Assembly (NCBI GenBank): GCA_029964075.1 | Contig: CM057141.1 | Coordinates: 14,260,001-14,324,000 of the forward strand | Length of the DNA: 64,000 bases | Source of the DNA: Patiria pectinifera | Taxonomy: Eukaryota > Echinodermata > Asteroidea > Valvatida > Asterinidae | Direction: 5' to 3' | Shown: piece by piece, positions 41,138-64,000 of the stretch | How the letters are laid out: every line of letters begins with the position of its first letter | How positions within the stretch are numbered: position 1 is the first letter of the stretch | Translations under genes and position numbers: made by a program | The notes under the pieces: model-generated | Database searches by the model: none | What the model was told of the DNA's origin: nothing | Seen by the model: the letters and a program-made list of their open reading frames with translations, nothing else

Positions 41138-44100
41138 AGGTAGGCAATCACAAATGTCAAGACAGAGTAATCAAGTTTTAGCGCGAAGTTGTCACTAGCT
41201 TGAAATGATAGTCAGTTGTCAGTGTGGTATGATTATTCCTCCACATGTTACTTGTCACCTGGTCACCTGGTCACACTTACCGTGCGGAATATGGTGCAGG
41301 GAATTTAAGTCATTGTCTTGTTGTAACAATCAACGTCTTACGACGTAAACTGACTGAGGTGATAGGAGATAAAATCATTTTCTGTCATCATGCTTGTGTG
41401 TTGCCCTAGTCTATAGCTCAATATGAAAGCATGGTAGTTATTTTCAGTTTTAGACTGGAAGTTATCCGTTTGAAAACTTTTGTACCTGTTTTATATGAGC
41501 ATTGTGAATGGAAGAATGTGTGCAAAATTTGTTTTTACTACACAGAGAAAGAAACTGTTATCTGAGGTTGCCAGAGGAAAGTTACAATTTTTGATGCCTG
41601 ATCATCCAGACTTCAAATCACAGGTAATTTGAATTCTTGACGGAGTTTTGACAAAATACTATCCCGGAACCGGACTTGAAATACATTTTCTAATTCTTGG
41701 TTTCAGCATTGGCTTTGGGCGATCTCTTACAGTGTACTAAGCTCTTGGATTCGAACGCCGGCTAAATTTATGCCCTCCTTCAAAACATTTAATAGATACA
41801 TGCCCACTTTTAAATAATCAGAAACAGTTTTGATGTTGTCAGCAATCAAACCAGATAGCATATAGTCAAACCAGATAGCATATAAGATAGTCAAACCAGA
41901 TAGCATATAAGACTGAAGTTTCACTTCTTGTTAACTGTTCGTGATAGGCCTACAAATATCTTCATTCGTTATACAGTGTTCAAATATTCGTGACTCGAAT
42001 TGACTCAATCTACATATTTGACTCGACTTGACACAACTCGACTGCACTCTGTGACTCTACTCGACCTTCTTGGCCTAACGACTTGACTGGACTCGAGTCA
42101 ATGCTTTAAAATAACTCAAAATGACTTGAGTCACTGAACTTGTGTCTCAAAAAAATTTATACAAATGTATCAAAATAAGTTACCCCTTGTTTACATAGAC
42201 ATATATGCATTTTTCATAAAATAACAATTGGTTATTTTGCCTCTGCAAAACAGATGCGAGAGAAGTATTTCAACTTTGCACATGAACCCAGCAGCTGTAT
42301 TCCAACATCCCCACAGGAGGAACTGCCCTGGGCGTTGAACACACTCCATCACCATGGTTACTTCTATCGGGACTGGGTGAAGGTCAAGGGTCAAACAGTC
42401 CAGACGCCAGTGTCTCGTACTCTGATTGGTGAACCCGAGACAACGTACAAGTACTTGGGCTTGCGCCTGTTTGCAATCCCGTGGTGCTTCGGGGATCATC
42501 AAGTGGAGAGCGAGGTCGAAGTGGCTTGTGGGATTATTGGAAAGCTCAACGAGCACTTCAAAACCGTCTCTAGGAAGTTACTGCTTGAAAGAACAGCAGA
42601 AAAGACTAAGCCAGAGTCTTGTATCTCCCAAAGAGCTGCACAAAGTCCTCCACATCACAGTCCAAGGGAGGAGACTAAGAGTTGTTCAGAACAAAAGCCG
42701 ACAACTTCTCGCCCATCCATCGAAGAGGGAACCGATTTCAATGTTGTGCTCATCAACTACATGGACCCAAAGGATCCAGACCTGAGATTGAAGGCCGAGC
42801 CTTATTATGGGATGGGACCTCTGGCTGTCAGCTGGCACATGGATAGTAATCTGGTCCAGGGCTCCACTGTGGCTGTATACAATCACACCTGCTCATCAGG
42901 TTGTAATATTTGGCCATATTTCTGATCCTCAATCATCTTTTTCTGGGGGAAAGGGTGTAAAGGCCTGTTAATACTTCATGCGAATGCAAATTATGCGATA
43001 CATATTTGAGTCATATCAGAAAGCATTTGCTGTGAAATGTGTTCAACTTTTGCGAATTTGCAGCGCAAAAATTTGCCCTGATGTCACAAATTGGTGTTCA
43101 CTTTCGTGCCAAGTATGAAACAGCCTTTAGACAGAATTTTGTGACATTTTGAGTAGCATTCTGCCCGTGGCTTCAAGTTTACACCATATTAATACATTAC
43201 TTATTGTTAACTGTGCTGTGACTCTAATTAACCTGACAATTAAAAGGCAATGATTATGACATCATGAAAACTCTGTCTGAACACATTTAGGCAAATTATG
43301 CGGGGATTAGTCAATCACAAGTCGGGTCACAAGTCAAAAAAGATGTAAAATGAACAAATTATTTACAGAAGTTTCATTTGAATAGTTTGTCGTTTGACTT
43401 TTGACTTGAGTACAGAATAACTTGTGATTGTTTTGTGATTGACTTGTGATGGACTTGTGATTGACTTGTGATTGACTTGTGATTGACTTTGAACTTTGTG
43501 ATTCAAGGAACAATGAAAAGCGTGGCACACATTCTTCTCGCACATATTTTTTTGAAATATTTCCAGGTGTTAATTTCTGTGTTTTAAACCTGCAACAACA
43601 GATGGAGACAGTTCAAGCGACTCCTCTGATTGGATGGTTGGCCTCAAGGTATCATGGGATATCGAGACACCAGGCGTGGCCGTACCTCTACAAACTGGCG
43701 AGTCATACTTCATGTTGGGGGATCTGAATGATACACATCAGCATTGTGTAGTGGCTGGTGGCCAGGCTAGGTTCAGCACAACTCACAGAGTTGCTGATGT
43801 AAGTTTTGGTTAACTTTAACCCATCAGCATTGTGTAGTGGCTGGTGGCCAGGCTAGGTTCAGCACAACTCACAGAGTTGCTGATGTAAGTTTTGGTTAGC
43901 TTTAACCCATCAGCATTGTGTAGTGGCTGGAGGCCAGGCTACATGTAGGTTCAGCACAACTCACCGAGTTGCTGATGTAAGTTTTGGTTAGCTTTAACCC
44001 ATCAGCATTGTGTAGTGGCTGGTGGCCAGGCTAGGTTCAGCACAACTACAGAGTTGCTGGTGTAAGTTTCGGTTTGCTTTAACCCTTGAGTCACTGTAGC

Positions 44101-47100
44101 GCCCAAAACCGCCCCGCTTATTGCTCACTGTAGCGCCTGAAACCGAAACCACCTGAGCACTCTATGGTTTTATTGATTCTTCAGTGAGTAAACACAATGT
44201 AATACAATGTAGTACAGGTGCTAATAGGTTCAAGAGCAACTGCCATTAATAAAGTACCAGTCAGCTGTTTAACGACCTAGGGTTTGTGTCTAGAATTTAG
44301 AAAGGGTAATAAACCTCACAGTGCGACCGTGCCTGTGGATTTGAGAAACCGTGAGAAAGTTGTCTGGAAAATACAATTTTTTTGAGGAAAAAAACACACT
44401 TTCAGAAAAAATATAAAGTACAAAGTATTAAAAAAAATCAGGGCAGGAGTGAAAATCTAGGCGGGAGGTGATGAAAACCTAAAAATCAACGTTGATTGGC
44501 CTTATTTATTTATTTTTCCTCTCAGTGCAGTCAAGGAACTCTTCCATACATCCAGCGCCGATGCAAAGAGGCGCTGAGTAACCTTGGTGAGACTGAGAAT
44601 GGAGAATATAAACTGACATCTTTGGCCGCTGACCATCTTGAGTTGACTGAAACTATACATAATGAGGTGAGTAGTGAGTATTCAGCTCCTCAAACCTCAC
44701 AAGTTTGAGCCCAAGTCTAGAGTGGTTTGCCTGAATCCCATTTTGTGTACCAAAAATTTGGTTTTGAGAGGATGCTTTAAATTAATTCATGGGAAGAAAC
44801 AGTTTTTTTGAGACTCTGATTTCTATCTAGAGTTTTAATAGAAATGTCCAGAATGTTTTTAAAATCCTGTTTTTTTTTTTATTTGGGGTAACGTCTTGTA
44901 TTTACATGTGGGAACTTTGAAGCAATTGACCTATCGCCATTTGCAAGTAAGCCACGCCCCTTAGACAACCCTCCGGAATTTTTGTACACTAACTTTTGTT
45001 TGTCTCAGATTTTGCGCGTTCGGCGTCCATTTGTTTATCATGTAATTGGACAATATTTCACAAGCTGTGTTGACGCGATTTTACCGTGATTCTACCGCAA
45101 TAGGTCAATTCTGGCAAAATGCCCTTTTTTGAAGGTGCATTTTAAATCAATTTAAAATTGGGGAAAAAATGAGTGTCATTGTTTTTTATTATTTGTAGGT
45201 GGAGTTTGAATGGCTACGGCAATTCTGGATGCAAGGATCTAGGCATGCCGTTGAGAGGAAGGGCTGGGTACCAGCTATGGAGGACCTGGAGGCTGATTGG
45301 CACAAGATGGAACACATGGTAGGTTGGGACCAGTGATAAGAGATTTAAAGGGAAAATACATTTGCAAACATCGAAAAATAAAACTACCAAGTTGTTATGA
45401 AATACCGGTACCTTACTAGGATGTTGGTAAATAACAGTCTAAAGCATCCTGTAAAATTATGGCACCTGGTGTGAAGTCATTTTCAAGAAAAATGGTATTT
45501 TTGTATACATTTCCAACGTTGGTCGGCCGACCACTGTGGGAAAAACCTAACTATTTTTCAACTACTGCTCCGTATTTGCCATTTTTTTCCATTCCAAATT
45601 TTGTTTGCTATTGGTTCCATGCATGTTCATGAACGGATGCAGGCCAGCTAGACTGGTTCCCTTACCTTTCAATTTTCCGGCATTTTTGATCCATTTCATT
45701 TTTAGTGGAGTCAGGGAACCTGACTACTTGAACATTTTTGTTTTTCTTGGTTTTTCCAGCATTTTCGAAAGCAAAACTTCAAACATATCAGTGTAACAAT
45801 ATTTGATCTATTATACTAACCCCCCAAATAGTTCATTTCTGAAAATTACAGCAAAAGCCAATGATGTACATTCCCTTTAATTAGGCTACACTTGAAAGTG
45901 ACATCTTGGTTAACATTCTCTGATGTGGAGTGTCCTGAAAAGCAAATTTTTTTGTGGTATTTCTGACAGACAAAACTTGCGGTCCAGGAAGCGAATGTTC
46001 TTGATGACGAAGAAGGTTTTGCAATTGCCCAGGTCCTTCTCCCACATCTCGAAGAAAGACAGAAGTTGAGACAGGAGTGTCTTGAGAAGTAAGCCTCAGT
46101 GATGTCTACCTCTTTCAGTCTTTTTGCTTCTCTCTGCCTGCCTGTTCTAATCAGTCGGTGAGATAAGTAACCAGTCTAATTCACAGGTAGTGGTGGGAGA
46201 AAGAAGATATTTAAAAATCCAGATATCTTAATTTTTTTATTCCAACCGATTAACGCTTATCCGATTTCACCTCAAGTTTGCATTCTGCTCACAGTCATTT
46301 AAACAAAAAGTGAAGAGTGAGGTGCCGCATACAATGCTGTTCACAATGATTTGGTGTAGTTTGCAGGATTCAATGACCACTAGGCCTTCACAAAAACATT
46401 CCAGAGGTGTAATGTTGCAAAAATGGGTGGGAACGTTAGTGAATGAATGCGCTTACAATCAGAGACCATGGAGCAAATGGGGGGATGTTCCAGTTGTTTT
46501 CTTTAGCTTGTGTCACAAGAAATCAGAAGGCCTAATTGTTGTACCGACTGGAAGTCCGGATTTGAATCCCGTTACTATTCACAAGTGACAGTCTGTCAGT
46601 CAGTCGGGGATTCAGTCAGTGGGGGAGTCAGTCCGTCAGTCGGGGAGTCAGTCAGTCAACATAATGAAAAGTTTGGGGCCCAAACGCGCAAAAGATCAAT
46701 GTGTGTGAGACAGCTCCAAAGCTTACCCAAAGTGACCTTGCGGTTTGCATACCACATGCAACACGCTGGCCACGTGCACTCACACAACTGACCTCTGCAA
46801 GTGGTTTCTTAACCAATGTAATCGAGTCTTATTTGAATGGAAAGAAAACTTCATCCTCTTTACAAAACCGCTACCCCCAGTGTGCTCTGACAGGGTTCTT
46901 GAGATACGTTGAGATAAACAACCAAAGGTCTGTCACAAACGGTCATTTTCTGTTCCGCTCCATAGGCAATTGCCTCATACCCCACATTTTCAATAAAAAA
47001 AATGATCAGTGGTTTTTCTGCCTTTCCAAGCCAGACATAGATAGATTTAAAGCCAGAAGAATGAATTTTCATAATCTGCAACTCCCAGGTTTGTGCGACC

Positions 47101-47719
47101 GACCGTTCTGAAGATACAAGGAATTTAGTGTAAAAATGGGCTATCTTTGTGGTCATTTCCCCACGCTAAAGCTTGTGTGGACATTTCCGGTTGAACAGAT
47201 GTGCGCTACTTTTCATTATGTGTGTCAGTCAGTCAGTGGGGGAGTCAGTCGGTCAATCAATCAGTTAGTTACAAAGAGGACTCTAGATTGGCCCTCTCTG
47301 GGACCACACCCAAAAAAATACTTTTTACGTTTTTCTCTTAGGCATACATAGAACTCTCCACTTGTCAGGCAAATTTCAAATGAAATTGCCACAATAAAGA
47401 TATTAAAAGTTTTGTGGCCTTTTTAAATCTTCATGTTAATATGCCCGTTCGGTTGAAAGAATGTACGGACAAGTTGACTTTGCCTTTTGACCTTGAAAAT
47501 TTCAATTTCTCTTTTTGCAGATTTTCACCCAAGATCTTAGAGACAATGCATGCCGACTTCTTGCCCATCCACAGACCCAAGTGGGAGGATGATGACCTCT
47601 CTCGACCTTTACCCTTTGGCCTCGGCAATATTATCAGCAAGATGAGACTAGTCACTAAGCATGGGAAGACAAGTTGCATCAGTGACTCTGAAAGTTCGGA
47701 CAGTGATTACCACAGCTGA
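41095..47719 (+). CDS. FTO: FTO, 2-oxoglutarate/Fe(II)-dependent nucleic-acid demethylase (8 coding exons)
   Basis: Exons: 41095-41139, 41546-41623, 42254-42899, 43602-43798, 44526-44666, 45199-45318, 45970-46088, 47521-47719. All introns are GT-AG and the phases agree. The sum is 1545 nt, giving 514 aa plus TGA, close to the 505 aa of human FTO. The family oxidatively demethylates N6-methyladenosine, m6Am and 3-methyl-U/T, mainly in the nucleus, using Fe(II), O2 and 2-oxoglutarate. Visible catalytic residues: Fe ligands H236 and D238 (SWHMDSN, end of exon 3) and H304 (THQHCVVAG, exon 4). The 2-oxoglutarate set is N209 (LINYMDP), Y292 (SYFML), and R313, S315 and R319 (ARFSTTHR). Substrate-pocket residues R96, Y106 and Y108 (TPVSR, TYKY) carry the same numbers as in human FTO. 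Exons 5-8 encode the helical C-terminal domain ([20 protein letters not shown] near the end). The start ATG has A at -3. A hydrophilic linker (about residues 142-200) and an acidic Ser-rich tail look lineage-specific. Oddities: the position equivalent to human E234 is S239, and the end of exon 4 is tandemly duplicated in the following intron. Exon boundaries are inferred, not from transcripts. Confidence 0.96.
41847..41912. repeat. short tandem repeat in FTO intron 2
   Basis: Three copies of CAAACCAGATAGCATATA separated by short spacers (AGATAGT or GT). Simple intronic repeat, no function implied. Confidence 0.85.
41985..42130. repeat. degenerate GACTCGA/GACTTGA-rich tract in FTO intron 2
   Basis: Irregular but dense repetition of GACTC, GACTTG and ACTCGAC motifs just upstream of exon 3. 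It is low-complexity sequence, related in character to the GACTTGTGATT repeat in intron 3. Confidence 0.7.
43424..43495. repeat. 11-bp GACTTGTGATT tandem repeat in FTO intron 3
   Basis: About six tandem units of TTGTGATTGAC with single-base variants, about 100 bp before the exon 4 acceptor. Looser CAATCACAAGTC copies in the opposite orientation at 43310-43340 could pair with it in RNA. Confidence 0.85.
43736..44085 (+). repeat. 86-bp tandem duplication of FTO exon 4 end plus splice donor (4 copies)
   Basis: Copies start at 43736, 43822, 43908 and 44000 (periods 86, 86 and 92 bp). Each spans the last 63 nt of exon 4 and about 23 nt of intron, including the GTAAGT donor. Copy 1 is the genuine exon end. 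Copy 2 differs from it by about one base. Copy 3 has a 6-bp insertion (ACATGT). Copy 4 lacks one base in ACTCACAG and is out of frame. The segment encodes the Fe ligand H304 and the 2-oxoglutarate ligands R313, S315 and R319. In copies 2 and 3 an AACCCATCAG sequence could act as acceptor, defining in-frame stop-free mini-exons at 43828-43884 (57 nt) and 43914-43976 (63 nt). Whether they are ever spliced in is unknown. Skipping them leaves the enzyme intact. Confidence 0.95.
44924..45110. mobile_element. small MITE-like element in FTO intron 5
   Basis: A 187-bp segment begins AATTGACCTATCGCC and ends GCAATAGGTCAATT, giving terminal inverted repeats of about 14 bp with one mismatch. The AATT at both ends may be a 4-bp palindromic target duplication or part of the repeat. 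There is no coding capacity. Assignment to a transposon superfamily is not possible from one copy. Confidence 0.6.
45345..45880. mobile_element. TTAA-flanked MITE in FTO intron 6 (family copy 1)
   Basis: A non-coding element of about 528 bp lies between TTAA (45345-45348) and TTAA (45877-45880). Its ends are inverted: AGGGAAAATACAT at the left and ATGTACATTCCCT at the right. Two further copies, one partial, lie at 51106-51564 and 52438-52677. They share interior landmarks such as AGGCCAGCTAGACTGGTTCC. TTAA target sites are typical of piggyBac transposons, so a piggyBac-like MITE is the best guess. The assignment rests only on target site and termini. Confidence 0.75.
46587..46658. repeat. GTCA microsatellite in FTO intron 7 (left)
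   Basis: Runs of GTCAGTCA interrupted by GGGGGAGTCAGT, preceded by GGATTTGAATCCCG near 46558, which resembles a pol III B box. It may mark the 5' part of a dispersed element reaching to the similar tract at 47222. No second copy in the window confirms this. Confidence 0.65.
47222..47272. repeat. GTCA microsatellite in FTO intron 7 (right)
   Basis: A second GTCAGTCAGTCA / GGGGGAGTCAGTCGGT tract in the same orientation, about 630 bp after the first. The pair may bound a retroposon-like insertion, or be two independent expansions of a simple repeat. Confidence 0.6.
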
Positions 47720-48130: not shown

Positions 48131-48454
48131 ACTTTGACCCATTATGAAGCAGAGTCCATAATCATTAGTTTCTTGTTTGTGTGTTGAAACTAGTTGTATA
48201 TGAGCTACTAGCTATTCGTTGTCAAACCCCACTTGATATTGGGAGTATTTGATAAGGATCTCTTCGTTATTTACTGTTACAAAGCTGTCAAAATTGGGTC
48301 GTCAATTTAATCTCATTAGCCGCTCACGAGATTAATAGCAAATACGCTATGACTACATGATGTGCATGAATTTTGCATGATGTGCGTCATGGTCGGAGTG
48401 GAACAAACGAATTGTGTTTTGATGAGATCGAAGGAATTCTGAGTGTCTGCCAAA

Positions 48455-50535
48455 ATGGATATCATTCGTAAAAGACTTCGCGGTATCAACGCTGCCACTA
48501 TTTTCCTGTCTTACCACAAACTGCTGAACGAGTCGCACCGGGGTCGGCGGCGGCACGAAGTCGTCTATGAGACTGTGGTTGGGGATTTAATCCTATGGCG
48601 CGCAGTCTTCACAGAATGCCTAGCCGTGTTTCTCTTTGTGTTCTTGGCGGCTGGGTCGTCGGTGGCCTGGCCGGGGGGTAATGCTCCCAGCAACCTCCAC
48701 GTCTCGCTGTCTTTCGGTCTCGTCATCGCATCCTTGGTGCATTGCTTCGGAGATGTGAGCGGGGCGCACCTCAACCCCGCCGTGACGCTGCCGCTGATGT
48801 TCTACCGAGAGCTCAGCCTGGTACGCGGGCTCCTCTACATCATCGCTCAGTGTCTTGGGGGGTTTCTGGGCGCGGCCCTGCTCCGAGTGGCCACACCTAC
48901 CGACCCACGGTATGACACCACCCTGGGGTGTACCCTGCTTGGGGAGAATGTCTCAGCAGGCCAGGGGTTTATCGTAGAACTTGTTGCCTCCCTTCAGCTA
49001 GTATTCACCGTGTTTACGACGACAGACCCTCGGAGGAAGGACAACAGAATCCCGCCTGCGCTGGCCATTGGTGTTTCAGTAGCACTTGGTTTATTATTTG
49101 CAGTAAGTTGAAACCATAAACAAAATTGTATATGTTTTGAATGTCTTTTTATTTTGACTAAATAAGTTACTTTCGTTATCTTTGTTTTTTGTTTTTTTTA
49201 AACAACTGGACATTTTTCCTTAAAAAAAAACAACTTGCACTAAATGTTGTCCTCTACTACACAATACATTTTTTTAATCACGTTATTTCAAATATTAGAT
49301 ACCATATTTTGTTTTACAAGTGTTTGTAACTTCGTCTTTCAACACCATACCACGACAGTATCAGTTAATTGCCATGTTCTTTACTTAGCACTTTGATGAT
49401 TGGTCAGATTCCATTTCGTTCGCCGCCATTTTGTTGACTTTGCTCTCTCTTGATTGGACAGATTCCATTCACTGGCGCCAGTATGAATCCAGCCCGGTCC
49501 TTTGGCCCAGCCTTATCGGCAGGGAACTGGAGTAATCACTGGGTAGGTCATCTGTGTTTTGACAATTTACTTCTCGTAAATCGTGATTCATTTAAAAATA
49601 CAACAGAATGCCGATAAAAATGGAAGATACCAGAATGAAATCTCGCGTAGTTATCTTCTTGATAGCATGCATGGCGATCACCATTTCTTTCGAAAGACAC
49701 TATTCGTGTGTGTTTTTCGTTTGAGAGAGACGCCGATCTAAAAGAAATTTAAAAAAAAATGCCTAATAATCTTTGACCTCGAGTTTTTCGCCATATCTAT
49801 GATGATTATGATTTGTTTGATTCGCTTCTTTACATATTGAAGAGGACCTTCTCCTGGAAACATTTACAATTATTTCCGAAATCTTCAAAAAATTTAAGTT
49901 TATTGACGAAAAAACAGTTTTCACCAACAGAAAGGGAAGACCCGATCGGACTGTATCATTCCTGGATTGGCAGAAGGCTGGGCAGACCCAGTACAAGCTT
50001 CGGCTTTTTGTCTGACCTCCCCATACTATAATTTCAAGTTCCGTTAAACAGTTTGTTCCTATGTATTGTACTTACCTTAAAGTATGGAAATAAACCTTGA
50101 ACCTGAAACCTGAAACTTTGTCCAATATTTTGAGATGTCCCAATAAGTAGTTAACAAATAATGACATCAATTAAGACGGCTCATCAATAGGAGAACAGTT
50201 TTGGCCCATTCTCTACGGTCCAATGAAATGTTGCATTTTTCTTTCAACTCCGGTAGCTGTACTGGATAGCCCCGCTCCTAGCCGGCCTGATTGCCAGCAC
50301 GGTGTACCGTCGACTCTTCGCCCCGGGCACTCTAATCGCCGGCAGCAAGCCGGCCACCACTGCCAGACGACGACACCGGCAGCGGACGGTGGAGGAGGAA
50401 GCCGAAACGGGAAGCATTCACGGAAACACCCTGGAAGAAGACGTCAGTGAGAGAGTGGCGCTGACTCCACCTCATCACGCTGATGAGATCAACAACAATG
50501 TCTTGACGGGGTCGCACATTATCACTGATGTTTAG
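48455..50535 (+). CDS. aquaporin (MIP family) water channel, 3 coding exons
   Basis: Exons 48455-49102, 49462-49542 and 50257-50535, phase-0 GT-AG introns, 335 aa. The start is ATG 48455 (A at -3); an in-frame TGA at 48440 excludes extension. Six membrane segments are visible (about residues 47-71, 81-98, 122-146, 171-190, 200-217 and 243-262) plus the two half-helices with NPA boxes: [10 protein letters not shown] (NPA 107-109) and [13 protein letters not shown] (NPA 225-227). The family forms tetramers conducting water, sometimes small solutes, across plasma membranes. The selectivity filter reads F87, L213, A222, R228. F, A and R match water-specific AQP4-type channels, but the usual His (VALGH) is Leu (VALGL). 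S229, A233, Y245 and W246 fit the water-channel rather than aquaglyceroporin pattern. The C-tail (about 70 residues) is basic then acidic and ends ITDV, a class I PDZ-type motif. The 50-residue N-terminus is basic. It lies 735 bp downstream of the FTO stop, same strand; co-transcription is not implied. The paralogue (AQP1/AQP4-like) cannot be fixed. Confidence 0.95.
49920..50120 (+). mobile_element. possible retroposon 3' end in aquaporin intron 2
   Basis: The segment ends with GGAAATAAACCTTGAACC and short CTGAAAC tandem units, a layout typical of the 3' tail of non-LTR retroposons or SINEs. No tRNA-like head or coding region is visible and there is no second copy in the window. Confidence 0.3.
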
Positions 50536-54780: not shown

Positions 54781-55384
54781 TGTTAGCATAAGCTGATGTA
54801 AAATTGGGCAAAATTAGATGTTTATGAAAAAAAATCAAATTGTAAGGGGTTAACCTTGCATTTTTTAGCAAAATCGGAAAAAATCAGATCTTTCTGGAAA
54901 ATTGCAGATTGTATGGGGTTAGATATTTATGAAACATTTCAAATTGTAAGGGGTGAACATTGCATATGTTAGCGAAATTGGGCAAAATCAGATGTTTCCG
55001 GAAAATTTCAGATGTAAGGGATTAACCTTGCTTTTTTAGTGAAATTTTGCAAGGTTAGATGTTGCGAAAAATTTCAAATTGGAAGGGGTTAACCTCGCAT
55101 TTTTTTAAAGCGAAAATGGGGAAAAAAAATCAAATGTTTCTGGAAAATTGCAGATTGTTAGGGCTTAACCTTGTATTTCAAGCAAAATTGGGCAAAAAGA
55201 AATGTTTATGAAAAATTTTAAATTGAAAGAGGTGTACCTTGTATATTTAGTGAAATTTGGCAAAATCAGATTTGTATGAAAAATCTAAAATGGTAAGGGG
55301 TTAACCTTGCTTTGTTAGCAAAATTTGGAGCATATTTTACTAAAATTGGGCAAAATCAGATGCTTCTAAAAAATCCAGATGTAA
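54781..55384 (+). repeat. minisatellite, left arm outer block
   Basis: Roughly nine forward units (GGGGTTAACCTTGC phase) between unique DNA and the left cassette. The last units match, inverted, the sequence beyond 63530. Confidence 0.85.
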
Positions 55385-56740
55385 AGTTTCCGCAAAAACA
55401 GCTGTTGAAAAAGAGCCCAATGTTGAACTTTACTGAGTCTAAGGTCTATCGAGGGGACGATCCTTCTTTCAACTCCCGGGGATTCGCTGACAGTCTCTAT
55501 TTTCCTTTTTAAGAAAGTCGAAATAGCTGAAGAGGGAGGTGAGAATCTATATGTGCCCAGATACAAAGAGTAGAAATCTACGCGTCTGCCTTTTGAAAAT
55601 ACACAATTGCGGTGTTCATTGTTGCGTAATGATCCGCCTACCACACGACTGTTTTGCACAGTAGGCTGTGTTATGCAGCTTCTTAACAAACCAAACACAC
55701 TGGGCTCATTATATCGACTTGTTTTTACCCATTAAGGTAAAGCAAATGGACCCAGTAATCTTCCTGGCGCGTTTGCTCACCTATAAAGACAACTTTTCTC
55801 AGTTTAAGGAAAATTCTAAGGTAACGAAATGGCCGAGTGGTTACGATTCGTCGTCCACGATTAGCGGGGTCCCGGGTTCGAATCCCGCTGGTGTCTTTTT
55901 GGTTTTTAACGTATGAGTTCAATCATTTACTATAAGGGATTTAATTTCCCGTCGTAAAGTACCAACAGTACCTTAGCTTAATCGGTAAGCACTGCTGCTG
56001 GTACTGTCCGCGAGTTCCAGGTTGGCGCCTTCGTACAGGTTCAGGGCATGTGGTCCACTCGGAGGATCAGGGCTTAGGGGCCGCCCTGTTCCTCCCTTAG
56101 CTCTTTGCTTTTACATGGTGCCTGGCCCTCCGGGGTTATATGGATGGATAGGGAAGGAAGTGTGTATTGGTCGGGGACGCCGAGACCCCGGAAGAGAACT
56201 AAGGGATCGGCTGGGGCATTGTTATGGCTCAGACCGATCCCTGAAAGCTTGACTAGCACATAACTTTTTGATTTTTTTTACCCTCTATCTTTTATACTTT
56301 GGTTTAGTTTGATATCTACAGCTGCTCGGCAGGTCTACGGGTAGTATCAAAATTGAAACAAAGGTGTATGTCATAAATCAAGATGTACATTGTAATATAA
56401 ATATTATTTATACATCTTTCAAATAACGTGTCTTTAATTGTGAGCATTCCAAACAATAAAGTAATTCGCAATAGTAATAGAATGGTATAGGCCTATGATA
56501 GCACGATCATTGCGTCTCTATTAAATTTAAAAAATATAATTTAGGCCCCTATGTGTGAAATATTCTTTGATTGACTATGATCTTCCATACGAATGAGTTA
56601 ATTCGCAAAATATAGCAACAACAAAAGAGAAAGGAAAAAGAGAACATTCCTTTACCCTAAAAAGTGGAAATATAATTTGTTTTAAAAAAGTCAAATGGGA
56701 CACTTCATGTATTGATTTAACAGTTTGCAAGGAGTTAGCC
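55385..56740 (+). mobile_element. left-arm cassette with tRNA-headed element, copy 2
   Basis: Non-minisatellite island with inverted counterpart at 62060-63530. It contains an A-box-like TGGCCGAGTGG (55830-55840) and B box GGTTCGAATCC (55875-55885), a Ser-tRNA-like head, then a degenerate second tRNA-like stretch at about 55973-56045 (TTAGCTTAATCGGTAAGC) and the shared body to GCTTGACTAGCACATAAC. Relative to the right-arm copy it lacks about 145 bp between GTATGTCATAAATCA and AGATGTACATTG near 56384; that segment is also recognisable in copy 1 at about 51650-51770, so the left arm has the deletion. About 60-80-codon frames here are not genes. Confidence 0.75.
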
Positions 56741-59690
56741 TTACATATTTAGCAAAATTGGGAAAAATCAGATGTTTCTGGAAAATATCAGATTGTATGG
56801 GGTTATATGTTTATGAAACATTTCAAATTGTAAGGGGTTGAACCTTGCATATTTTAGCGAAATTGGGCAAAATCAGATCTTTCTGGAAAATTTCAGATTG
56901 TAAGGGTTTAACCTTGCTTTTTTAGTGAAATTTGGCAAAATAAGATGTGGATGAAAAAATTCAAATTGTAAGGGGTTAACCTTGCTTTTTAAGTACAATT
57001 GGAAAAATTTAAATGTTTCTGAAAACTTTCAAATTGTCAGGGGTTAACCTTGCATTTTTTAGCGAAATAGGGCAAATCAGGTGTTTATGGAAAATTTCAG
57101 ATTTTAAGGGGTTAACTTGCATTTTAAGCAAAATTGGGCAAAGTCAGATTTGTATGAAAAATCAAATTTGAAGGGGTTAACCTTGCCAAATTAGGGCAAA
57201 ATCAGATGTTCCTGGAAAATTGCAGATTGAAAGGGGTTAACTTTGCTTTTTTAGTGAAATTTGGCAAAGTTGAATGTTTATCAAAAATTTCAAATTGTAA
57301 GGGGTTAACCCTGCATTTTGTAAACGGAATATGGGAAAAATCAGATGTTTTCGGAAAATTGCAGAATTGTATTGGGTTAACTTGGCATTTTTAGCAAAAC
57401 TGGGCAATATCAGATTTTTATGAAAAATCTCGAATTGTAAGGGGTGAACCTTGCATTTTTAGCAAAATTGGGCAAAATGAGATGTTTCTGAAAAATTTCA
57501 AATTGTAAGGGGTTAACCTTGCATTTTTTAGCAAAATAGAGAAAAATCAGGTGTTTATGAAAAAAAATTCAGATTGTAAAGGGCAAAATCAGAAGTTTCT
57601 AGAAAATTGCAGATTGAAAGGCCAGGGGTTAACCTAGCATTTTTAGCAAAATTTGGCAAAATGAGATTTTTATGAAAAATGTCAAATTGTAAGGGGTTAA
57701 CCTTTGCCAAATTAGGGCAAAATCAGGTGTTTATGAAAAATGTGCAGATTGAAAGGGGTTAACCTTGCATTTTTAGCAAAATTGGGCTGAATCAGATTTG
57801 TATGAAAAATTGTAAGGGGTTAACCTTTGCCAAATTAGGGCAAAATCAGAAGTTTCTAGAAAATTGCAGATTGAAAGGGGTTAATCTTGCATTTTTTGCA
57901 AAATTGGGCAAAATCAGATGTTTCTGAAAAAAATCCGATGTAAAGAATTAACCTTACTTTTTTTTAGTGAAATTTGGCAAAATTAGATGTTTATGAAAAA
58001 TTTCAAATTGTAAGTGGTTCACCTTGCATTTTTAGCAAAATTGGGAAAAATTTTTATGTCTATGAAAAATTTCAAATTGTAAGGGATTAACCATTGATTT
58101 TTTAGCAAAATAGGGCAAAATCAGGTGTTCATGGACAATTTCAGATTGTAAGGGGTTAACTTCGCATTTTTTAAGCAAAATAGGGCAAAATCACAGGTTT
58201 CTGGAAAAGTTCAGATTGTAAGGGGTTAACCTTGCATTTTTAGCAAAATTGGACCAAATCAAATTTAAATAAAAAATAAAAAATTGTAATGGATTAACCT
58301 TGCCAAATTGGGCAAAATCAGATGTTTCTGAAAAAATCCGATGTAAGGAATTAACCTTGCCAAATTAGGGCAAAATCAGAAGTTTCTAGAACATTGCAGA
58401 TTGAAAGGGGTTAACCTTGCTTTTTTTTTTAGTGAAAATTGGCAAAGTTAGATGTTGATGAAAAAATTCAATTTTTTTTTTATTTTTTTTCTTCTGGAAA
58501 ATTGCAGATTGTAAGGGGTGAACCTTGTATATTTAGCAGAATTTGTCAAATTCAGATTTGTATGAAAAATCTACAATTGTAGGGATTTACCTTTCTTTTG
58601 TAGCAAAATTGGGTGCATATTTTACTAAAATTGGGCAAAATCAGATGTTTCTGAAAAATTCCAGATGTAACGGATTAACCTTGCTTTTTTTGTAAAATTG
58701 GGCAAAATTAGATGTTTCTGGAAAATTGCAGATTGTATGGGGTTAGATGTTTATGAAATATTTCATATTGTAAGGGGTGAACATTGCATATTTTAGCGAA
58801 ATTTGGCAAATCAGATGTTTCTGAAAAATTTCAGATGTAAGGAATTTACCTTGCTTTTTTTAAGCGAAAATGGGGGGAAAATTGGGAAATTGTTGAATGT
58901 TGATGACAAATTTCAAATTGTAAGGGATTAACCATTGATTTTTCAGCAAAATAGGGCAAAATCAGGTGTTTATGGAAAAATTCAGATTGTAAGGGGTTAA
59001 CTTTGCATTTTTTTTAGCAAAATAGGGCAAAATCACAGGCTTCTGGGAAAGTTCAGATTGTAAGGGGTTAACCTTGCATTTTTAGCAAAATTGGACCAAA
59101 TCAAATTTAAATAAAAAATTAAAAATTGTAATGGATTAACCTTGCCAAACTAGGGCAAAATCAGATGTTTCTCAAAATTGCAGATTGTAAGGGCTTAACC
59201 TCACATTTTTAGCAAAATTGGGCAAAAAAAATGTTTATGAAATGTTTATTTTTTAGTGAAATTTGGCAAAGTTGGATGTTCATGAAAAATTCAAATTGTA
59301 AGGGGTTAACCCTGCATTTTTTTAAGCGAAATTGGGAAAAATCAGATGTTTCTGGAAAATTGCAGAATTGAATGGGGCTAACTTGGCATTTTTAGCAAAA
59401 TTGGGCAAAATGAGATGTTTCTGAAAAATTTCAGATGTAAGGGGTTAACCTTGCTTTTCAAATTGTTAGGGGTTAACCTTGCATTTTTTAGCAAAATAGG
59501 GCAAAATCAGGTGTTTATTAAAAAATTCAGATTGTAATGGGTTAACGATGCATTTTTAGCAAAATTGGGCTAAATCAGATTTGTATGAAAAATCAAAAAT
59601 TGTAAGGGGTTAACCTTTGCCAAATTAGGGCAAAATCAGAAGTTTCTAGAAAATTGCAGATTGAAAGGGGTTAACCTTGCATTTGGCTAA
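56741..59690 (+). repeat. minisatellite, left arm inner block
   Basis: About 40 forward units. Some stretches repeat as longer blocks: the run around 58100-58330 reappears at 58920-59150 with the same diagnostic AAATCACAGG, GGACCAAATCAAATTTAAAT and GTAATGGATTAACC variants. This indicates higher-order duplication inside the arm. Confidence 0.9.
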
Positions 59691-62059
59691 AAATGTGAGG
59701 TTAAGCCCTTACAATCTGCAATTTTTTGGAAACATCTGATTTTGCCCTAGTTCGGCAAGGTTAATCCATTGCAATTTTTGATTTTTCATTTAAATTTGAT
59801 TTTGCCCAATTTTGCTAACAATGCAAGGTTAATAACCCCTTACAATCTGAACTTTTCCAGAAACCTGTGATTTTGCCCTATTTTGCTAAAAAAAATGCAA
59901 GCTTAACCCCTTACAATTTGAATTTTTCCCAATCTTATTCAAAAAACAAGGTTAATCCCTTACATAAACATGTAACCCCATACATTCTGCAATTTTCCAG
60001 AAATATCTGATTTTTCCCGATTTTGCTAAAAATGCAAGGTTAACGCCTTACAATTTTTTCATAAACATCTAATTTTGCCCAATTTTACAAAAAAAGCAAG
60101 GTTAATCCGTTACATCTGGAATTTTTCAGAAACATCTGATTTTGCCCAATTTTAGTAAAATATGCACCAAATTTTGCTAAATATACAAGGTTCACCCCTT
60201 AGGCCTACAATCTGCAATTTTCCAGAAACATCTGATTGTGCCCTATTTTGCTAAAAAAGAAAATGCAAGGTTAACCCCTTACAATTTGAAATTTTCATAC
60301 ACATCTAATTTTGCCAAATTTTACTAAAAAAGCAAGGTTAGGCCAAAAAAAAAAAAAGTCGGTCTCTGGTCAGCGCGCGCGTCGATTTTAATCATGCGCG
60401 TCGATCCTTTTTTTTTCCAAAATGTTCAGCGGTAGCTCCAACAGCGCCCTCTATTTCCGCACCTCCTCATTTTTTTTTACCAAAGAGCACCAAGGAATGG
60501 GAAATTGCACCAAGGCAAATGATCGAAAGCACCAAGGCAAATTATGGAGGACACCAATGTACATAAGGACACCAAAAAAGCAAAATAGTACCCACCTTGT
60601 CTGTACAATCCAAGCTTGAAGAAGAAGAAAAAAAAAAAGCCGCGTGGCCGCGTCAATTCCGGAACTTTGGTCTGACCAGAGACCGAATATTTTTTTGGGG
60701 GGGGGGGCCTTAATGCCTTAACTATAATTTCTTTTAGAAACATCTGATTTTGCCCAATTTTAGTAAAATATGCACTAAATTTTGTTTAAAAAGCAAGGTT
60801 AACCCCTTACAATTTTTAAATTTTCATGCAAATCTGATTTTGCCCTATTTTGCTAAAGATACAAGGTTAAGCCATTACAATCTGCAACTTTCCAGAAACA
60901 TCTGATGGTGCCCTATTTTCCAAAAAAAAAACAAGGTTAACCCCTTACAGCTTGAATCTTTACATAAACGTCAAATTTTGCCCAATTTGGCTAAAATATG
61001 CAAGGTTCACCCCTTAAAATTTGGAATTTTTCATAAACATTTCTTTTGGCCTAATTTTGCTAAAAATGTGAGGTTAAGCCCTTACAATCTGCAATTTTTG
61101 AGAAACATCTGATGTTGCCCTAGTTCGGCAGGGTTAATCCATTACAATTTTTGATTTTTCATTTAAATTTGATTTTGCCCATTTTTTTCTAAAAATGCAA
61201 GGTAAATAACCCCTTACAATCTGAACTTTTCCAGAAGCCTGTGATTTTGCCCTATTTTGCTCAAAAAAATGCAAAGTTAACCCCTTACAAACTGAAATTT
61301 TCCATAAACACCTGATTTTGCCCTATTTTGCTAAAAAAATCAATGGTTAATCCCTTACAATTTGAAATTTTTTCATCAACATTAAAAATTTTCCCAACTT
61401 TGCTAAAAAAAATGCAATCTTAACCCCTTACTTAGGTTAATTCCTTACATCGGATTTTTTTTCAGAAACATCTGATTTTGCCCAATTTTGCTAAAAATCT
61501 GCAATTTTCTAGAAAATTCTGATTTTGCTCTAATTTGGCAAAGGTTAACCCTTTACAATTTTCGATTTTTCATACAAATCTGATTGAGCCAAATTTTGCT
61601 AAAAATGCAAAGTTAACCCCTTTCAATCCGCAAGTTTTTCATAAACACCTGATTTTGCCCTAATTTGGCAAAGGTTAACCCCTTACAACTCAGTTTTGAT
61701 TTTTCATACAAATCTGATTTAGCCCAATTTTGCTAAAAATGCAAGGTTAACTCCTTACAATCTGAAATTTTTCATAAACATTTAAATTTTTTCCAATTGT
61801 ACTTAAAAAGCAAGGTTAACCCCTTGCAATTTGAAATTTTTCATCCACATCTTATTTTGCAAAATTTCACTAAAAAAGCAAGGTTAACCCCTTACAATCT
61901 GAAATTTTCCAGAAAGATCTGATTTTGCCCAATTTCGCTAAAATATGCAAGGTTCACCCCTTACAATTTGAAATGTTTCATAAACATCTAACCCCATACA
62001 ATCTGCAATTTTCCAGAAACATCTGATTCTTCCCCGATTTTGCTAAAACAATGCAAGGC
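59691..62059 (-). repeat. minisatellite, right arm inner block (inverted)
   Basis: Reverse-complement units (GCAAGGTTAACCCCTTACAA phase). The block 59690-59920 is repeated in the same orientation at about 61050-61300 (AATGTGAGGTTAAGCCCTTA, then CCTAGTTCGGCA). Both are inverted relatives of the left-arm blocks near 58200 and 59100. A DNA transposon interrupts it at 60341-60709. Confidence 0.9.
60341..60709. mobile_element. PIF/Harbinger-like MITE, 369 bp
   Basis: Bounded by perfect 3-bp direct repeats TTA (60338-60340 and 60710-60712). The termini are inverted: GGCC, an A run, then TCGGTCTCTGGTCAG on the left (60359-60373), and CTGACCAGAGACCGA (60672-60686), a T/G run, then GGCC on the right. 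Removing it with one TTA restores a continuous minisatellite unit. TTA/TAA targets are characteristic of PIF/Harbinger transposons, so a non-autonomous member is likely. The interior has tandem GCACCAAGGCAAAT-like motifs and no transposase. A 65-codon frame inside is not a gene. Confidence 0.85.
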
Positions 62060-63530
62060 TAACTCCTTGCAAACTGTTAAATCAATACATGAAGTGTCCC
62101 ATTTGACTTTTTTAAAACAAATTATATTTCCACTTTTTAGGGTAAAGGAATGATCTCTTTTTCCTTTCTCTTTTGTTGTTGCTATATTTTGCGAATTAAC
62201 TCATTCGTATGGAAGATCATAGTCAATCAAAGAATATTTCACACATAAAGACCTAAATTATATTTTTTAAATATAAATTTAAATTTAAATATCATATACC
62301 ATTCTATTACTATTGCGAATTACTGTATTGTTTGGAATGCTCACAATTAAAGACACGTTATTTGAAAGATGTATAAATAATATTTATATTACAATGTACA
62401 TCTTTATTCTTTCCCGGTATAATTTATGGCGTTTCTAACGTCAATTGGCAATCGCGTCATTATGTAATGATAGTCAAATTGATCAAACGAAACTCCGTTT
62501 TGATTTTAGTCAATTATGAAATATTCATTGATTTATGACATACACCTTTGTTTCAATTTTGATACTACCCGTAGACCTGCCGAGCAGCTGCAGATATCAA
62601 ACTAAACCAAAGTATAAAAGATAGAGGGTAAAAAAAATCAAAAAGTTATGTGCTAGTCGAGCTTTCAGGGATCGGTCTGAGCCATAACAATGCCCCAGCC
62701 GATCCCTTAGTTCTCTTCCGGGGTCTCGGCGTCCCCGACCAATACACACTTCCTTCCCTATCCATCCATATAACCCCGGAGGGCCAGGCACCATGTAAAA
62801 GCAAAGAGCTAAGGGAGGAACAGGGCGGCCCCTAAGCCCTGATCCTCCGAGTGGACCACATGCCCTGAACCTGTACGAAGGCGCCAACCTGGAACTCGCG
62901 GACAGTACCAGCAGCAGTGCTTACCGATTAAGCTAAGGTACTGTTGGTACTTTACGACGGGAAATTAAATCCCTTATAGTAAATGATTGAACTCATACGT
63001 TAAAAACCAAAAAGACACCAGCGGGATTCGAACCCGGGACCCCGCTAATCGTGGACGACGAATCGTAACCACTCGGCCATTTCGTTACCTTAGAATTTTC
63101 CTTAAACTGAGAAAAGTTGTCTTTATAGGTGAGCAAACGCGCCAGGAAGATTACTGGGTCCATTTGCTTTACCTTAATGGGTAAAAACAAGTCGATATAA
63201 TGAGCCCAGTGTGTTTGGTTTGTTAGGAAGCTGCATAACACAGCCTACTGTGCAAAACAGTCGTGTGCTAGGCGGATCATTACGCAACAATGAACACCGC
63301 AATTGTGTATTTTCAAAAGGCAGACGCGTAGATTTCTACTCTTTGTATCTGGGCACATATAGATTCTCACCTCCCTCTTCAGCTAATTCGACTTTCTTCA
63401 AAACGAAAAATAGAGACTGTCAGCGAATCTCCGGGAGTTGAAAGAAGGACCGTCCCCTCGATAGACCTCAGACTCAGTAAAGTTCAACATTTGGGCTCTT
63501 TTTCAACAGCTGTTTTTACGGGAACTTTAC
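62060..63530 (-). mobile_element. right-arm cassette with tRNA-headed element, copy 3 (inverted, most complete)
   Basis: Reverse complement of the left-arm cassette over its whole length. B box complement GGATTCGAACC at 63025-63035 and A box complement CCACTCGGCCA at 63069-63079. Keeps the roughly 145-bp segment (about 62405-62548) missing from the left arm. Outer flank matches 55385-55815 inverted. Acceptor-stem halves do not pair, so it is not a tRNA gene. Confidence 0.75.
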
Positions 63531-64000
63531 ATCTGGATTTTTTAGAAGCATCTGATTATGCCCAATTTTAGTAAAATATGCTCCAAATTTCGCTAGAAAA
63601 GCAAGGTTAACCCCTTACCATTTTAGATTTTTCGTACAAATCTGATTTTGCCAAATTTCACTAAATATACAAGGTACACCTCTTTCAATTTAAAATTGTT
63701 CATCAATTTTGCTAGAAATACAAGATTAAGCCCTAACAATCTGCAATTTTCCAGAATCATCTGATTGTGTCCTATTTTGCTAAAACAAATGTAAGCTTAA
63801 CCCCTTACAATCTGCAATTTCCCAGAAACATTTGATTTTTTCCCATTTTCGCTTTAAAAAATGCGAGGTTAACCCCTTTCAATTTGAAATTTTTCGCAAC
63901 ATCTAACCTTGCAAAATTTCACTAAAAAAGCAAGGTTAATCCCTTACATCTAAAAATTTTTCGGAAACATCTGATTTTGCCCAATTTCGCTAAAATATAC
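63531..64000 (-). repeat. minisatellite, right arm outer block (runs off window)
   Basis: Inverted units collinear with 54900-55384 of the left arm, for example the pair CTCGCATTTTTTTAAAGCG and CGCTTTAAAAAATGCGAG. The array continues past the window end, so the true palindrome is longer than seen here. Confidence 0.9.

Follow-up and report, generated by a model that had tools for sequence, protein, structure and literature searches.

A tandem array of an exon end and its splice donor, in four units, at an intron of the FTO gene

Intronic minisatellites, or VNTRs, consist of tandem units within introns, and the number of units can change by slippage or unequal crossing-over. Tandem duplication has also been tied to the gain of introns. 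The accessible part of a report on potato RdRp describes intron gain by tandem duplication across an intron–exon boundary (PMC4974935), and in Drosophila, according to the available portion of another report, novel introns arose from the tandem duplication of AG/GY proto-splice sites (PMC2891723). Here, we analyze an array of splice donors in an FTO gene of Patiria pectinifera. No comparable donor array was found in the literature, as judged from titles and abstract openings, with subscription journals thinly covered.

The gene lies in the window, by which we mean the whole stretch of DNA that was analyzed (64,000 nucleotides; C13:14260001-14324000, in a searched assembly of 613.5 Mb and 1020 contigs). 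Its joined exons, on the + strand, match the Pfam profiles FTO_NTD (284.2 bits) and FTO_CTD (111.3 bits), each against a cut-off of 27 bits, and human FTO chains from the PDB match them with E ~ 4e-75, so FTO was rightly named as the host gene in an earlier note on this DNA. The first recognized exon (41495..41623), provisionally started at the first ATG of the open stretch, ends at a CAG/GTAATT donor at 41624; when it is translated together with exon 2, its alignment to human FTO begins at human residue 32. Exon 2 (42254..42899) carries the HxD metal motif, and exon 3 (43602..43798) encodes the end of the catalytic domain, with the third Fe ligand and two 2OG-binding arginines. The final residue of exon 3 is the final position of the FTO_NTD profile, and the exon reaches its donor at 43799 in phase 0. 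The C-terminal domain starts in exon 4 (44526..44666; acceptor TTTTCCTCTCAG), which is followed by exon 5 (45199..45318), exon 6 (about 46295..46408, with an approximate end), and the last coding exon with the stop (47521..47719). In the part of the source available, HxD...H...R...R is the motif named for FTO, and the human enzyme has H307 as its third Fe ligand and R316 and R322 as its 2OG arginines (PMC4224472). Aligned to human FTO, the window gene holds the complete set, as SWHMD, QHCV (the human chain reads THKHCV), ARF, and THRV. The counterparts of H307, R316, and R322 were placed by combining the PDB-chain alignment with the human numbering.

At the boundary between exon 3 and the following intron, TRF reports a repeat with a period of 86, 4.0 copies, and 92% matches, exactly at 43736-44085. 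Two probes from the unit, 27 and 32 bases long and allowed 3 mismatches at most, gave 4 matches each, all inside the array, while the maximum among 100 shuffles was 0. The four tandem copies of the FTO exon end with its GTAAGT donor that the earlier note had seen are thereby confirmed. Each unit comprises the last 63 nt of exon 3, which encode the third Fe ligand and both 2OG-binding arginines, and the first 23 nt of the intron. The units, all on the + strand, measure 86, 86, 92, and 86 bp. Unit 1 (43736..43821) is the genuine end of exon 3 with its 23 nt of intron, and unit 2 (43822..43907) differs from it at 1 of 86 positions. Unit 3 (43908..43999) is set apart from unit 2 by a 6-nt insertion and 2 substitutions. 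Unit 4 (44000..44085), which runs on into the remaining intron, is the most diverged; the 4 substitutions and one deletion between it and unit 1 are the largest divergence inside the array. This 1-nt deletion shifts the frame between the two arginine codons and leaves the second arginine out of frame. This corrects the earlier note, in which the codons for the Fe ligand and the 2OG arginines had been credited to every copy. The array differs from a tandem exon duplication in that just the last 63 of the 197 nt of exon 3 were copied, without an acceptor and pyrimidine tract of their own. An acceptor-like CATCAG within the unit is exonic, and coding, in unit 1. The insertion in unit 3 creates a perfect CTACATGTAG palindrome (window 43939-43948), and the resulting TA-CATG-TA has what we take to be a resemblance to the excision footprint of a Tc1-type transposon.

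A 401-bp query located three additional places in the assembly, all on contig C20, at 27.141, 27.178, and 27.209 Mb. In each of these three FTO copies (A, B, and C), two tandem units occupy the same position as the array on C13, and the unit start was found six times, two per FTO copy, across the 150 kb of C20 examined. The array thus has the character of an intronic minisatellite, with head-to-tail, near-identical intronic units in a copy number of 4 on C13 and 2 at the three C20 loci. A search of the assembly with exon 2 DNA led to the same four loci. The FTO_NTD profile, with 14 candidates scored, gave at least 13 matches, none of them outside the four loci; match counts in this search are lower bounds, and a repeat-free FTO gene that might serve as an outgroup was not found by it. 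Copy A carries a stop in exon 4, and nothing in it matched the last exon. In copies B and C, exon 2 is interrupted by a stop; copy B has in addition lost one base there, and copy C, for which one TAG is also listed, gave no match for exon 4. Since all three C20 copies are disrupted, the gene in the window is, as far as its sequence tells, the only intact-looking FTO found in the assembly. Homology to the window begins at 41709 in all three C20 copies, and tblastn and blastn of the 100 kb around them gave no convincing match to exon 1. The second units at the three C20 loci have a common TA-to-GG (GTA-to-GGG) change, which is probably one event. In all three C20 introns, unit 2 is separated from the GTCACTGTAGC sequence by a few hundred bases that contain AACCCTGG-type inverted repeats; this stretch is missing at the matching place on C13 and looks like a small mobile element.

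After FTO, the window contains an aquaporin-like gene (48443-49605), whose first exon stretch scores 156 bits as a member of the MIP family. An aquaporin-like region also adjoins two of the three C20 copies (B and C), and because of this, FTO and aquaporin sequence were probably copied together. On the other side of FTO, a 219-bp satellite forms a 36.7-kb array (1256-37979) of 168 copies with 98% matches, which stops about 3.5 kb short of the first FTO exon. It contains no long open frame, with at most 153 codons free of stops, and when 150 kb of C20 and the 10 kb beyond the window were searched with one 219-base stretch of the array, nothing matched. The last part of the window is taken up by a large imperfect inverted repeat (54921-63972) with its center near 59.45 kb; its outer arms are 93% alike over about 1.45 kb, and short 35/68-bp tandem repeats lie inside it in mirrored orientation.

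Between C13 and C20, divergence is about 7% in introns 3 and 4, with 19/264 and 35/518 differences from copy A and 19/254 and 37/520 from copy B in the aligned parts, and 10-11% directly upstream of exon 3 (10/97, 11/97, and 10/97 for A, B, and C). The exons have diverged less. In the part of exon 3 that precedes the units, the differences from A, B, and C are 0, 1, and 0 over 134 positions; exon 4 shows 3 and 2 over 141, exon 5 shows 4 and 3 over 120, and exon 2 shows 22-24 over about 646. Consequently, the C20 copies may have been under some constraint for a time. As all four loci have at least two units, the first duplication would most simply predate the C13/C20 gene duplication, unless gene conversion moved the two-unit state. 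The intron before exon 2 (41709-42253) differs from A, B, and C at only 7, 2, and 4 of 545 sites, a low divergence that suggests sequence exchange between the C13 and C20 loci; such exchange could also have carried the two-unit state from one locus to another.

The younger event looks to be only the growth from two to four units, on C13. In the simplest order, units 1 and 4 would be the old outer pair and the inner units would be younger, and this fits both the greater divergence of unit 4 and the closeness of units 1 and 2 and of units 2 and 3. The duplication had been called recent on the strength of a second copy almost identical to the genuine exon end. While the near-identity is real, it does not date the original event, and the term applies to the growth from two to four rather than to the first duplication. 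At alignment column 58, units 1, 2, and 4 on C13 read AGA, and unit 3 and all six C20 units read CGA, a pattern that speaks against a simple tree and can be explained only if sequence passed between units at least once or the same change arose in parallel. Both the frameshift in unit 4 and the GTA-to-GGG change on C20 are in keeping with a lack of constraint on the extra units. We also considered selection on unit 3, in which GGT to GGA, AGA to CGA, and the in-frame insertion all look harmless to the frame, and dropped it: all six C20 units also have CGA, which leaves unit 3 with just one private substitution and one private insertion.

Of the options offered in the earlier note, a neutral repeat fits best. 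We consider it likely that the array is a small intronic minisatellite, seeded by the duplication of an exon/donor boundary and spliced out as a passenger with the 727-nt intron. A tandem duplication would have copied the end of exon 3 and the adjoining intronic nucleotides, and the second copy would have landed inside the intron. The gene region would then have been copied to the other contig, where the three disrupted copies still show two units, and the array on C13 would later have grown to four, presumably by unequal crossing-over or slippage between near-identical units. In the transcript, the first donor (43799) would be joined to the acceptor at 44526, and units 2-4 would be removed within the intron. 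Splice sites were scored with hand-set weights and not with a trained model, so percentiles are rough; by this measure, the acceptor at 44526 is strong, in the 99th percentile of 676 local AGs. These two sites are most likely the ones used because they are the only combination of strong sites that yields full-length FTO. That the array has been kept in the only intact-looking FTO argues for little harm. Nevertheless, near-identical competing donors in one transcript are a real puzzle for a neutral reading. In the duplicate-site experiments of Reed and Maniatis in 1986, the donor nearer the acceptor reportedly tended to win. If that preference held here, harmful splicing from donors 3 or 4 would be expected unless something opposed it, and this counts against the array being a mere passenger.

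The serious rival is competition among donors with loss of transcripts to nonsense-mediated decay (NMD), which we regard as unlikely. Intronic donors would capture some transcripts, which would then read VSFG and a stop directly behind the catalytic domain; the outcome, to which we also give a low probability, would be either an FTO output lowered via NMD or a C-terminally truncated protein. GTAAGT is kept in all four donors, at 43799, 43885, 43977, and 44062, positions that agree with those first assigned to them, as do the lengths of the two mini-exons considered below. Donors 1-3 read GAT/GTAAGT, share the same exon and intron context nearby, and score equally, in the 99.1st percentile of 753 local GTs; donors 2 and 3 are therefore a match for the genuine one. 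Donor 4 reads GGT/GTAAGT and falls in the 96th percentile. Use of donor 2, 3, or 4 in place of donor 1 leads in every case to DVSFG followed by one shared stop, which is codon 286 in a model starting at exon 2. However, this explanation requires that the longer exon be favored over the ancestral one, and the fact that the only intact-looking gene has kept the array points to an interference that is small, or useful. An extended form, which we think quite improbable, would make the four donors a competition switch and unit 3 an exon in the making that now and then contributes a second Fe/2OG-binding H...R...R segment, with an FTO form of altered or no demethylase activity produced beside truncated forms targeted by NMD.

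Exon birth is the bold alternative, and a very improbable one. Unit 3 would be spliced in as a 63-nt mini-exon, and a second H...R...R segment would be placed where the catalytic domain adjoins the C-terminal domain. The tandem duplication contains splice signals, as expected where introns are gained in this way. However, no intron of splice-competent length lies between neighboring copies, if the limit is taken from human introns: the spacing between neighboring units amounts to an intron of 29 nt, and to 115, 121, or 207 nt only when units are skipped. The shortest human intron named as spliced in the accessible part of one report is 43 nt (PMC4463651), and some ciliates, according to the available part of another, splice introns of about 25 bp (PMC5014332). 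Mini-exons had been proposed in copies 2 and 3. The first of these (43828-43884; 57 nt, in frame) would be hardly usable in animal-like splicing because donor 1, its sole upstream donor, leaves a 29-nt intron. The proposal fares better for unit 3 (43914-43976), which is in frame, leaves the model free of stops from exon 2 to exon 5, and has an upstream intron of sufficient length, at 115 nt. A mini-exon from unit 4 would be shifted in frame and meet a stop at codon 317 of the model. Among the three intronic units, only unit 3 could, judging by sequence, serve as a coding mini-exon preceded by an intron of ordinary length. Its 6-nt insertion preserves the frame, and its acceptor (78.6th percentile) comes near the genuine acceptor of exon 3 (82.0th); the acceptors of units 2-4 (TTTAACCCATCAG) are in the 79th percentile of the local AGs. 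Against exon birth, the pyrimidine tract at unit 3 is weak, the equally strong donor of unit 2 must be passed over, and only one of three intronic units qualifies. In addition, CGA in unit 3 is the C20 state, so no clear synonymous change hints at selection.

An assembly or sequencing artefact is the least probable explanation by our estimate, since, although short near-identical tandem units can be miscounted and one assembly was examined, units 3 and 4 have private changes, the same assembly spans the 36.7-kb satellite array, and the three separate loci on another contig share the duplication in a two-unit form with their own common TA-to-GG change, for which reason we reject the suggested local mis-assembly of the duplication as such. 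The duplication itself is supported by four loci; the exact number of four units comes from one assembly and could be off.

If the ordinary reading as a spliced-out minisatellite holds, the locus is a clean example of the duplication of an exon/donor boundary, in which the two-unit and four-unit states let the steps be ordered. If unit 3 is ever spliced in, the cofactor-binding motif of the enzyme would be duplicated.

The array is a variant of tandem duplication across an exon–intron boundary. As in potato RdRp, the duplication crosses such a boundary and copies ready-made splice signals. As far as the available part of that report describes it, the potato case involves the acceptor side and one new intron that is spliced, with support from RNA-seq, whereas the FTO array involves the donor side, has four units, and would offer 29 nt as an intron between neighbors. 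Similarly to the Drosophila introns, again as given in the accessible portion of the source, the duplicated coding sequence holds a latent acceptor, which in FTO is the CATCAG that is coding in unit 1. However, the Drosophila duplications occurred within coding sequence and became introns, while the extra FTO copies lie inside an existing intron. What sets the FTO unit apart from intronic minisatellites in general is that 63 nt of it are coding sequence and that it carries a functional-looking donor. Like the minigenes of Reed and Maniatis, the array would set identical donors in competition in cis, but as a natural array instead of a construct. It is a natural version of the duplicated-donor experiment, bearing on how a transcript picks among near-identical donors.
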